Positions 36,839 to 40,622 of a stretch of 64,000 nt of DNA are shown piece by piece (position 1 is the stretch's first letter; the number at the start of each line of letters is the position of its first letter). Under the pieces are notes generated by a model. The model saw only the letters and a program-made list of their open reading frames with translations, did not search any database and was not told the DNA's origin. A program made the position numbers and the translations under genes. Origin of the DNA: an uncultured Ulvibacter sp. (GTDB taxonomy: Bacteria; Bacteroidota; Bacteroidia; Flavobacteriales; Flavobacteriaceae); contig CALIAF010000025.1 in NCBI GenBank assembly GCA_938041335.1, forward strand, positions 62,001 through 126,000, given 5' to 3'.

Positions 36839-37021
36839 ATGGAAGAACATTCATTCCAGTGTCCACATTGCTGGGAGCAAATTTCTATGATGCTCGATAC
36901 ATCTGTGTCTTTTCAAAAATACGTAGAGGATTGTGAGGTGTGTTGTAATCCCATTGAGCTTTCTGTGGCTTATGAAAACACCGTTTTAACTCAGTTTTCT
37001 GCTGATAGCATAGAGCAATAA
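36839..37021 (+). CDS. CPXCG-motif cysteine-rich zinc-ribbon protein
   Basis: The 60-residue protein has CPHC (Cys8, Cys11) and CEVCC (Cys32, Cys35, Cys36), a small zinc-ribbon pattern. It lies 6 bp after the ABC-F gene, so the two are probably cotranscribed. A frameshifted copy is found 3.3 kb downstream (40216-40364), just before the initiator tRNA gene. Function is unknown. Confidence 0.85.
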   Translation: MEEHSFQCPHCWEQISMMLDTSVSFQKYVEDCEVCCNPIELSVAYENTVLTQFSADSIEQ

Positions 37022-37100
37022 TTTCTCATTTCTGAAATATGAACTATTTATCATATAGTTCTTGCACAGCCTGAACAGGTTTGTGTCATTGCGGTCCAAT
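36874..37100 (+). repeat. Left copy of the ~228-bp direct repeat (CPXCG gene end plus old tRNA promoter)
   Basis: It aligns collinearly with 40216-40443 at about 87% identity by eye, with one single-base gap. In this copy the tRNA promoter -7 box has decayed from TATCTTTG to TGTCATTG, while the protein-coding part is intact. Confidence 0.9.
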
Positions 37101-37130
37101 GTTTTCTGCGGCAGAACGTTTAGAAAATCA

Positions 37131-37152
37131 ATCTAGTTCTCGCTAGTAGTAA
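37131..37152 (+). pseudogene. Remnant of the 3' end of an initiator tRNA gene
   Basis: ATCTAGTTCTCGCTAGTAGT and the next two bases match 18 of 22 positions of the T-arm/acceptor end of the intact tRNA and its flank (from 40564). The tRNA body is deleted in this copy. The 30 bp before it show only weak similarity to the right copy. Confidence 0.65.
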
Positions 37153-37179
37153 ACCCAGTTAAAAAAGTAACTGGGTCTT
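37153..37179 (+). terminator. Terminator after the CPXCG gene and tRNA remnant
   Basis: A perfect 9-bp stem ACCCAGTTA/TAACTGGGT with a 6-nt loop is followed by CTTT. The sequence from here to 37368 shows no gene. Confidence 0.75.
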
Positions 37180-37368
37180 TATGTTTCAAACTTGCGACGC
37201 TCATATCAAAGTCTTTTGTGGTCATAGACAAGCTAAATTGACGGGTTGCATTATGTATGTGAAGCCAAACTGTTTTATAACATATCATGTTAATTTAGAT
37301 CTTGATAATAGAGTCTAGTTCGTCTACTAGTCGAGCGCTTTCATAAAAATGTGAAGGTTTTCTCTCTT

Positions 37369-38292
37369 TTAGTATTTCTCAAACCATTTAAAATGAGCCT
37401 CCATAATAGCGGCTTTATTTTCATTAATATGAGCTTCAAATTTCTTTGCGACCATGGATAGATTTTTAGAACGCAACCATATGAGATTCCAGTTTGTAAT
37501 GATGGGAAGATTCTTGACCGGGATGACTTGAAGATCACCACTTTTTAATTCGTTTTTTATTCCAATTAATGGCATTATAGAAAAACCTAGCCCAGCGATA
37601 ATAGCCTGTTTTACTGCCTCATTAGACGTTAATTCCATTTTCTTATACGTTGATATTTTGTGTGATGCAATAAAACGTTCCATTGCGTTTCGTGTCGCAG
37701 AACCTTGTTCTCTGTATATAAGCGGCAGTTGCTCCATTACTTTGATGCTTAAGTTTTTTTCTATTGATTTATACTGTTTGCCTCCCACGAGGTAGAGTTT
37801 GTTTTCCATTAATTCGATGCGATTAATTTTTACATTTTTTGGTATCGTGGATACCATGGCAAAATCGACATCATTATTTTCAATAGATCGCATCACTTCT
37901 GCTTTATTGGTAACATCCATGGTTAGGTCAACTCCGGGGTTTTCGCTTAAGAATTCTGTCAAGAAATTGGGCATTGCATATTTTGCAGTGGAGACAATGG
38001 CTATTTTAAGTTTGCCTGCAAGTTCCCCCTTGTAGGAGAGTGCTTTATAGTTAATTGTAGATACCTCATTTAGTACTTTTTCTGCTGCAAGTGCAATCTC
38101 TTCTCCAAACTCTGTAATGTATAAGCGTCTCCCAACAATCTCGAATAATGGAATATTGAATTGTTCTTGGAATTTTTTTAGCTGAATTGATACGGCAGGT
38201 TGAGTCAAAAAAAGTTCTTCAGATGCCTTTGTAACACTCTTTAATGCTGCTATTTTGTGGAAAATCTCTAGTTGATGCAGTGTGTAGTTCAT
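37369..38292 (-). CDS. LysR family regulator of the sbtA segment
   Basis: The 307-residue protein has an N-terminal winged helix (MNYTLHQLEIFHKIAALKSV ... TQPAVSIQLKKFQEQFNIPL, about 1-60) and a LysR substrate-binding domain (about 90-295). It is divergent from the small membrane protein and the SbtA-type transporter, with an 81-bp AT-rich shared region. This is the classic LysR arrangement and resembles CbbR/CmpR control of carbon-uptake genes. Regulation of sbtA by inorganic carbon is inference. Confidence 0.87.
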   Translation of the reverse strand: MNYTLHQLEIFHKIAALKSVTKASEELFLTQPAVSIQLKKFQEQFNIPLFEIVGRRLYITEFGEEIALAAEKVLNEVSTINYKALSYKGELAGKLKIAIVSTAKYAMPNFLTEFLSENPGVDLTMDVTNKAEVMRSIENNDVDFAMVSTIPKNVKINRIELMENKLYLVGGKQYKSIEKNLSIKVMEQLPLIYREQGSATRNAMERFIASHKISTYKKMELTSNEAVKQAIIAGLGFSIMPLIGIKNELKSGDLQVIPVKNLPIITNWNLIWLRSKNLSMVAKKFEAHINENKAAIMEAHFKWFEKY

Positions 38293-38373
38293 AAGTATAG
38301 TTTATATAAATCATAATAAATATAAATAAAAATTAACAAATAAAAGCATGCATCTTTGCTAAAAATTAAAACA

Positions 38374-38604
38374 ATGGGAACACTTATTCAAAAAAACAGA
38401 AATCGATTCATAGCCAAAAATCTTGATTTAAATACTTTTATATCTCGAGATACTGTAAAATTTTTAAAGATGATATCCATACTTGGATTGTTTATATTTT
38501 TTATAGTGTTAAGTCTTACTAATGGCAATCTCCATCTAACTGAGATAAGCACAGGTGGGGCGATTGTTATCATGCTGTCTTTTATTAGAATATATTCTGA
38601 ATAA
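38374..38604 (+). CDS. Small membrane protein between lysR and sbtA, unknown
   Basis: The ATG at 38374 gives 76 residues; an upstream TTG at 38356 is less likely. The N-terminus is basic (LIQKNRNRFIAKNLDL) and two hydrophobic segments follow (about 32-48 and 55-70). I do not recognise the family. It lies 39 bp before the transporter gene and is probably in the same transcript. It might be a transporter accessory protein, but nothing in the sequence proves it. Confidence 0.6.
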   Translation: MGTLIQKNRNRFIAKNLDLNTFISRDTVKFLKMISILGLFIFFIVLSLTNGNLHLTEISTGGAIVIMLSFIRIYSE

Positions 38605-38643
38605 TTGCTGGGCTTTTATCTATCCTTTACCTAACCTACATTT

Positions 38644-40023: not shown

Positions 40024-40092
40024 AAGAAAAGATGTAGATCGGGTGATAAAGTTAAAGGATTAGTGCCCGAATTATACGCTTAGATTGTTGAG

Positions 40093-40122
40093 AAAAAACC
40101 ACGTATACAGCGTGGTTTTTTT
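40093..40122 (+). terminator. Terminator of the sbtA operon
   Basis: An 11-bp perfect stem AAAAAACCACG/CGTGGTTTTTT with a 7-nt loop marks the right end of the transcribed bicarbonate segment. The next 90 bp show nothing. Confidence 0.88.
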
Positions 40123-40215
40123 GTTAGGAATGGTTTTGTACAAAGTTTAAATCGATTTTTATCTCATACGAGTTTGCGTAAAAACAGCTATATTCTGCCT
40201 GAATAACACTTGTTT

Positions 40216-40364
40216 GGAGCAACTTTCTATAATGCTCAATACATCTGTAGCTTTTTTGAAATACGTATGAAGATTGTGAGGTGTGTTGTAATCTCATTGC
40301 GCTTTCTTTGGCTTATGAAAGCACCATATTAACTCAGTTTTCTACTGATCACATAGAGCAATAA
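40216..40364 (+). pseudogene. Broken duplicate of the CPXCG zinc-ribbon gene
   Basis: It matches codons 12-60 of the intact gene (36874-37021), but the part with CPHC is missing. A single T insertion after TACGTA (about 40267) shifts the frame and leads straight into TGA. The final IEQ-stop (GAG CAA TAA, 40356-40364) is still recognisable. It has no usable start codon. Confidence 0.85.
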
Positions 40365-40404
40365 TTTCTCATTTCTGAAATATAAAATATTTATCATTTA
40401 GTTC

Positions 40405-40434
40405 TTGGAAAGCCTAAAAAGGTTTGTATCTTTG
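40405..40434 (+). promoter_or_regulatory. Promoter of the initiator tRNA gene
   Basis: TTG at 40405-40407, 19 bp, then TATCTTTG at 40427-40434 is a complete match to the Bacteroidota TTG-N19-TAnnTTTG consensus. The tRNA begins about 70 nt downstream. Confidence 0.8.
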
Positions 40435-40505
40435 CAGTCCAATATTTTTGGCGGTATTATGAACCGCAAAGTTAAGAGCTAAAGTGAAAAAATTGGAGCA
40501 TATAT

Positions 40506-40578
40506 CGCGGGATAGAGCAGTAGGTAGCTCGTCGGGCTCATAACCCGAAGGTCACTGGTTCGAGTCCAGTTCCCGCTA
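40506..40578 (+). tRNA. Initiator tRNA-fMet (anticodon CAT)
   Basis: A full cloverleaf can be drawn: acceptor CGCGGGA/TCCCGCT, D-stem GAGC/GCTC, anticodon stem TCGGG/CCCGA with loop CTCATAA, T-stem ACTGG/CCAGT with loop TTCGAGT, discriminator A at 40578. Initiator marks are the unpaired 1:72 position (C with T), A11:T24 in the D-stem, and three consecutive G-C pairs in the anticodon stem. The 3' CCA is not encoded (CTA follows). Confidence 0.95.
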
Positions 40579-40589
40579 CTAGTAATGAC

Positions 40590-40622
40590 AAGCCTTCACA
40601 GAAATGTGAAGGCTTTTTTTTA
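40590..40622 (+). terminator. Terminator of the tRNA-fMet gene
   Basis: An 11-bp perfect stem AAGCCTTCACA/TGTGAAGGCTT has a GAAA loop and a T-run. Its core is repeated in inverse orientation in the next terminator (40753-40790). Confidence 0.9.

Follow-up and report, generated by a model that had tools for sequence, protein, structure and literature searches.

A 64,000-nucleotide stretch of an uncultured Ulvibacter sp. genome (hereafter the window; contig C25, positions 62001-126000) carries, at positions 36839-40622, two copies of a unit composed of a gene for a CPXCG zinc-ribbon protein and the promoter of an initiator transfer RNA (tRNA-fMet), with a lysR-sbtA segment between them. A duplication in this lineage, followed by complementary decay of the two copies, very probably explains the locus, which is a clear evolutionary fossil and not a new kind of system. 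Each copy keeps a different function, and the opposite half has decayed. The source genome (G000) measures 3.25 Mb in 63 contigs, and contig C25 spans 135 kb.

Local alignment pairs positions 36864-37111 (left copy) with 40207-40454 (right copy), both on the plus strand, with 214 identities in 249 columns and 2 gap columns. A repeat search recovered the similarity independently as two ungapped blocks, of 186 nt at 88% and 58 nt at 83% identity. An earlier note on this DNA had described collinear direct repeats of about 87% identity, which the alignment bears out. The units are collinear and stand head-to-tail, as expected of a tandem duplication with complementary loss, and the repeat covers the end of the CPXCG gene, the promoter and the start of the leader that precedes the tRNA.

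The left unit follows an ATPase gene (34913-36832, plus strand; Pfam ABC_tran), which we take to be of the ABC-F type, and opens with an intact CPXCG gene at 36839-37021 (plus strand). Its reading frame is open across 60 aa and matches PF14255 with 66.3 bits against a cut-off of 25.2, and the alignment of its product with 25 relatives (26 proteins) contains 13 invariant columns. A promoter-like stretch comes next (37062-37091, plus strand) and then no tRNA; the tRNA body is absent. The promoter is of the form typical of Bacteroidetes, a -7 box of the TANNTTTG type with a TTG 19 nt upstream. The -7 box of the right copy (40427-40434) reads TATCTTTG and that of the left copy (37084-37091) TGTCATTG, as against TAT(A/C)TTTG in nine of nine aligned relatives. 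The left copy does combine, as first proposed, a sound protein gene with a mutated promoter.

In the right unit the losses fall on the protein gene, again in agreement with the earlier description. The CPXCG copy is truncated, lacking its start and first codons, and frameshifted, and it is changed at two of the columns that are invariant in the 26 proteins (W12 to L and P38 to L in left-copy numbering); a protein search recovered it as a CPXCG relative with an E value of 1.5e-11. Behind it stand an intact promoter (40405-40434, plus strand) and an intact tRNA-Met(CAT) gene (40506-40579, plus strand; ARAGORN, and Rfam RF00005 at 66.2 bits), whose initiator class was judged by eye from its sequence relatives and its unpaired first base. 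An inverted repeat forms a terminator-like stem 3′ of the tRNA (40583-40622, plus strand), and on contig C6 of the same genome a second tRNA-fMet gene and the fragment of it are each followed by a similar stem. The leader between promoter and tRNA-fMet (40450-40484) contains a CGGnATTATGAnCCG..AAGTTAAnAGCTAA-like sequence conserved in eight of nine aligned relatives, and it has no match in Rfam.

Both halves reveal which of the copies decayed. From the stop codon to the repeat end, the promoter regions differ by 13 substitutions; comparison with the majority state of nine relatives assigns the change to the left copy at 10, to the right copy at 1 and to neither at 2 unassignable sites. A wider promoter count of 19:1 was dropped, since 9 of its sites fall past the repeat end at 37111, where it is doubtful that the left copy is still homologous. 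In the coding part of CPXCG 16 codons differ between the copies, 13 of them nonsynonymously and 3 synonymously, and at 13 of the 13 amino-acid differences the left residue is the commoner one among 25 family members. The nonsynonymous share expected for these codons under neutrality is 75-81%, which the observed 13 of 16 matches. By way of comparison, the CPXCG genes of relatives G004, G007 and G010 show 25 synonymous and 8 nonsynonymous codon differences, summed over three non-independent pairwise comparisons. On these small numbers, the right CPXCG copy apparently evolved without constraint for most of the time since the two parted. Because the ratio of nonsynonymous to synonymous changes matches neutrality, the two copies were probably near-identical at their formation, and together the neutral ratio and the near-identity argue for a duplication within the lineage, not the import of a diverged copy. 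With 10 of 11 assigned promoter changes on the left and all 13 amino-acid changes on the right, the earlier proposal of duplication followed by opposite decay holds up well.

Gene order in relatives agrees with a single ancestral unit. Searched for across whole genomes, CPXCG turned up in 30 of 59, the window's genome among them with two matches; the 29 others have one each. It is likewise single, within the stretch examined, in 80 of 80 named loci (the best 80 of 585 confirmed candidates), headed by Leeuwenhoekiella at 73-75% identity. Of these 80 loci, 52 have a complete tRNA-fMet gene on the CPXCG strand no more than 10 kb downstream, in 23 of them within 300 bp; one locus has the tRNA on the opposite strand, and in 27, some with short right flanks, the stretch holds none. 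Eight of the ten same-genus genomes searched have CPXCG. A check proposed in the earlier note concerned relatives without sbtA: in three of these (G004, G007 and G010) a single CPXCG directly precedes tRNA-fMet, in the order ABC-F/CPXCG/tRNA-fMet and with the tRNA 203 bp from the end of the CPXCG match, and no relative lacking sbtA was found to have both copies. In G003 the order ABC-F/CPXCG is also followed by tRNA-fMet, inside which the contig ends. The ABC-F genes of these four genomes are 84-85% identical to that of the window, and their matches end 223-227 bp before the end of the CPXCG match. Between CPXCG and tRNA-fMet, G005 and G006 carry an AsmA-like gene (named by eye), and G008 carries a SpoIIAA-like and an AsmA-like gene; the AsmA-like gene of these three genomes has no match in the window's genome. 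In G009 the contig ends before any tRNA, and the incomplete genomes G001 and G002 gave no CPXCG match. Candidate decayed 5′ tRNA halves before the tRNA of G004 and G010 are marginal, with 7 and 11 of 1000 shuffles scoring as well, and were not used; the best alignment in G007 lies elsewhere and is unsupported (38 of 1000 shuffles).

A separate observation concerns contig C100 of G009 (locus L053), on which the ABC-F gene is 96% identical to that of the window, as against the 84-85% of the four genomes above. It is followed by RND-efflux-like open reading frames (ORFs; by eye) and by a CPXCG gene only 58% identical, and the contig is possibly mosaic or chimeric.

In some members of the family a module of 172-181 nt stands directly 3′ of tRNA-fMet; it ends in a copy of the last ∼15 nt of the tRNA, before which stands a long hairpin. 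We located it on the minus strand at L223:1501-1681, L228:1501-1676, L229:876-1053, L230:1501-1673, L231:1501-1673 and L048:14590-14761, and further at L168:10376-10552 and L166:909-1083. In these 8 sequences, 22 of 33 predicted pairs show at least one compensatory double change. Of 397 family genomes, 11 contain the tail pattern of the module (none with a reversed control), a tRNA-fMet being recognised upstream in 7 of the 11 loci, and the module is present in tandem in Lacinutrix. An Rfam search of seven module loci and of the window segment brought only tRNA to the gathering score.

Two scraps lie behind the left promoter. The first (37126-37152, plus strand) copies the 3′ end of tRNA-fMet: positions 37131-37152 match it at 18 of 21, which 11 of 1000 dinucleotide shuffles of the surroundings equalled, a moderate level of support. 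The bases immediately upstream, AATCAAT, are not tRNA sequence and fit the end of the mini-module. Positions 37126-37146 match the module end AATCAATCCAGTTCCCGCTAC at 18 of 21 and form the sole site in the window, on both strands, with three or fewer mismatches, and the alignment scores are 31-39 against four modules as opposed to 30 against the tRNA end. Because its upstream bases fit the module and not the tRNA, and because the module scores are higher, this scrap fits better as the end of a structured mini-module of ∼175 nt than as a decapitated tRNA. The 22-nt tRNA scrap of the earlier note is therefore present but better read as a probable module end, and a second remnant had been overlooked. 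This second scrap (37311-37372, plus strand) aligns with the 3′ end of tRNA-fMet and its terminator-like stem in 51 of 69 columns, a result matched by 0 of 1000 shuffles; with the tRNA region set aside, it ranks first among the plus-strand tiles of the window. Its tRNA part alone scores 27, however, and among 4250 plus-strand tiles an unrelated spot near 17446 scores 28, as do two minus-strand tiles; for this reason we grade it a probable, not a certain, second tRNA-fMet remnant. It does not appear among BLAST matches in its own genome at E≤1. Taken together, the scraps suggest that the left tRNA, before its loss, had gained downstream additions like those of tRNA-fMet genes in relatives.

Between the copies lie lysR and sbtA, as had been reported, and a 102-aa ORF as well. 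The lysR regulator gene (37369-38292, minus strand; PF00126 and PF03466) is divergent from sbtA, and its top NCBIfam score is to CbbR (NF045990), at 181 bits far below the cut-off of 450. The sbtA-like gene (38644-39609, plus strand) encodes a predicted Na+/bicarbonate transporter, with a Sbt_1 domain (PF05982, 384 bits) that spans its full length, profile positions 1-307 of 308. A 77-aa ORF between the two (38371-38604, plus strand) has no family in the Pfam scan. The 102-aa ORF (39715-40023, plus strand) has no match in Pfam or NCBIfam and recurs beside sbtA, making its product a candidate partner or regulator of the transporter. sbtA is patchy, with matches in 10 of 59 genomes and none in the ten same-genus genomes searched, several of which are incomplete. 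We inspected stretches of 18-20 kb around sbtA in seven genomes, setting aside the more distant G048 and G054. lysR, sbtA and the 102-aa ORF occur together in seven of seven (the ORF match is weak in G038), their surroundings are other than those in the window, and no CPXCG gene lies within the stretches. The set thus looks portable. In G012, sbtA lies ∼4.6 kb from a tRNA-fMet fragment, possibly by coincidence; no such fragment is listed in the other six stretches (18-19 kb).

The tRNA-fMet gene is an integration site across several Flavobacteriaceae genera. A tRNA search of 59 genomes found fragments running from position 31-33 to position 73-75 (E<1e-9) in at least eight, those among the matches listed being G000 (contig C6), G008, G011, G012, G013, G016, G027 and G034; fragments also occur in the named loci L145 and L193 (32-75) and L166 (30-74). 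Their placement varies, from 7.5 kb upstream of a tRNA-fMet in G013 to far off in G034 and G011, and more complete tRNA copies lie 23.7 kb (G006, positions 4-74) and 6.8 kb (G007, positions 17-75) from the tRNA. A PF00589 tyrosine recombinase adjoins the tRNA or fragment in 5 of 18 genomes at 0.6-1.4 kb (849 bp in G006, 601 bp in G007, 831 bp in G008, 1020 bp in G027 and 1394 bp in G034), the match in G008 reaching 24.2 bits, below the Pfam cut-off of 27.1. The cargo includes an arginine-decarboxylase-type, arginase-family and deoxyhypusine-synthase-type trio in L145, a Roc-COR protein in L193 and, by eye, a Fic-like ORF in G012. The genome of the window itself shows this pattern on contig C6 (L117, 1-7873): an intact second initiator-type tRNA-fMet is followed by an island-like 7.7 kb encoding a TPR protein and a 1743-aa repeat protein, and then by an exact 44-nt piece of the tRNA, where the contig ends. 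A literature search found no account of integration at tRNA-fMet in Flavobacteriaceae, which is not proof of absence; a paper on Sinorhizobium prophages (PMC12429752) contains the term.

These observations suggest a history that would begin with a single ABC-F, CPXCG, promoter, leader and tRNA-fMet array. A head-to-tail duplication, running from near codon 10 of CPXCG across the tRNA, would have left two linked units separated by further DNA. The left copy would then have kept CPXCG and lost the promoter and tRNA, and the right copy kept the promoter and tRNA and lost CPXCG, each losing what the other supplied because either unit sufficed for each function. The lysR-sbtA-ORF set would have ended up between the units, arriving either together with the duplication or afterwards. 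Two routes to the duplication are about equally likely, neither quite reaching an even chance. By one, a molecule bearing the CPXCG end, promoter, tRNA and cargo would have recombined at tRNA-fMet in the manner of a Campbell-type insertion, through homology or a tRNA attachment site, directly giving the order intact CPXCG, promoter, tRNA, cargo, CPXCG end, promoter, tRNA. By the other, just as plausible, a plain tandem duplication would have taken place and sbtA arrived separately. The routes are inseparable because genome searches with the outer ends of the units gave no good match and G005 shows no synteny on the right flank.

Several points weigh against this history. ABC-F adjoins CPXCG in some relatives only, with several kb between them in others; a genome with two whole units, the expected intermediate, was not found among the 59 genomes or the best 80 of 585 loci; and many of the relatives are incomplete assemblies. 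For positions 40020-40215, ahead of the right copy, and 37100-37380, behind the left copy, the rest of the genome offers no good match, which leaves the far end of the unit untraceable. In G005 the contig with tRNA-fMet does not carry the gene of the right flank (44066-45655), which leaves an empty site beyond reconstruction.

The alternatives fare less well. A classical tRNA island, in which an integrase-bearing sbtA element entered at tRNA-fMet, was bounded by direct repeats of the tRNA end and later lost its integrase, would fit the use of this tRNA in the family (fragments in at least 8 of 59 genomes, a recombinase in 5 of 18) and the tRNA-end remnants to the left of sbtA. Integrase-mediated insertion at a tRNA duplicates the 3′ part of the tRNA downstream, not the upstream gene and promoter. 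The long repeat of the window lies upstream of the tRNA, and integrase action alone therefore does not explain it; both fragments (37126-37152 and 37311-37372) are likewise upstream, not downstream, of the intact tRNA. As the earlier note had stated, no integrase is present among the ORFs of the segment by ORF list and Pfam, and of seven PF00589 matches in the genome none is on contig C25. Because the upstream part is duplicated and both segment and contig are free of an integrase, we do not file the window as a tRNA island, an origin that we consider decidedly unlikely. The suggestion of an insertion at the initiator tRNA survives to the extent that the gene is an integration site in the family, but insertion would not by itself make the upstream repeat.

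Transfer of the right unit from a sister species would accommodate the patchiness of the sbtA set (10 of 59 genomes), which must move or get lost. A working copy acquired by transfer would be expected to show mainly silent differences, whereas the differences here stand in neutral proportion with all amino-acid changes on the right; we rejected transfer on this substitution pattern and regard it as very improbable. Chance or low-complexity similarity, for which the AT-richness of the region might speak, is refuted by the identity statistics, with 247 aligned positions at 87% and the right copy matched by protein search (E 1.5e-11), so that the pairwise alignment, a check also named beforehand, disposes of AT-rich coincidence. 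An assembly artefact is likewise rejected, the copies differing by ∼13% and sitting inside a 135-kb contig, and we give the two together next to no credence. In a more far-reaching and unlikely reading, the flavobacterial initiator tRNA would be repeatedly renewed: elements or circles would bring a fresh promoter-tRNA-fMet unit, the resident would decay upstream and cargo such as sbtA would be trapped, with the ∼175-nt mini-module perhaps the smallest agent or a relic.

The SbtA bicarbonate transporter with a LysR-type regulator is at home in a cyanobacterial setting. Like SbtA systems, the window has a Sbt_1 family protein and a divergent LysR; unlike them, it has no recognised SbtB-type PII partner, and the adjacent 102-aa ORF is without a Pfam or NCBIfam match. 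Tandem duplication-random loss has been described chiefly for the gene orders of animal mitochondria (PMC4223735, PMC4430869). The window resembles these cases in that neighbours including a tRNA were copied head-to-tail, complementary losses followed, gene order changed and remnants were left. It differs in lying on a bacterial chromosome, in pairing a protein gene with a tRNA, in having genes between the copies and in involving a mobile-element integration site. The tRNA gene fragments left by integrating elements are well known (PMC9897764), and the partial 3′ ends near intact tRNAs seen here are of the same kind, in Flavobacteriaceae starting at the anticodon loop. The fragments of the window, in contrast, lie upstream of the intact tRNA, and its main repeat consists not of tRNA but of the sequence before it. 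The window thus presents a known process, duplication with complementary loss, in a very legible form. It is an unusually clean case on a bacterial chromosome, with the direction of decay readable in both halves of the duplicate, and illustrates how the tRNA that starts translation and the gene next to it can come apart, with new genes settled between them and both retained.

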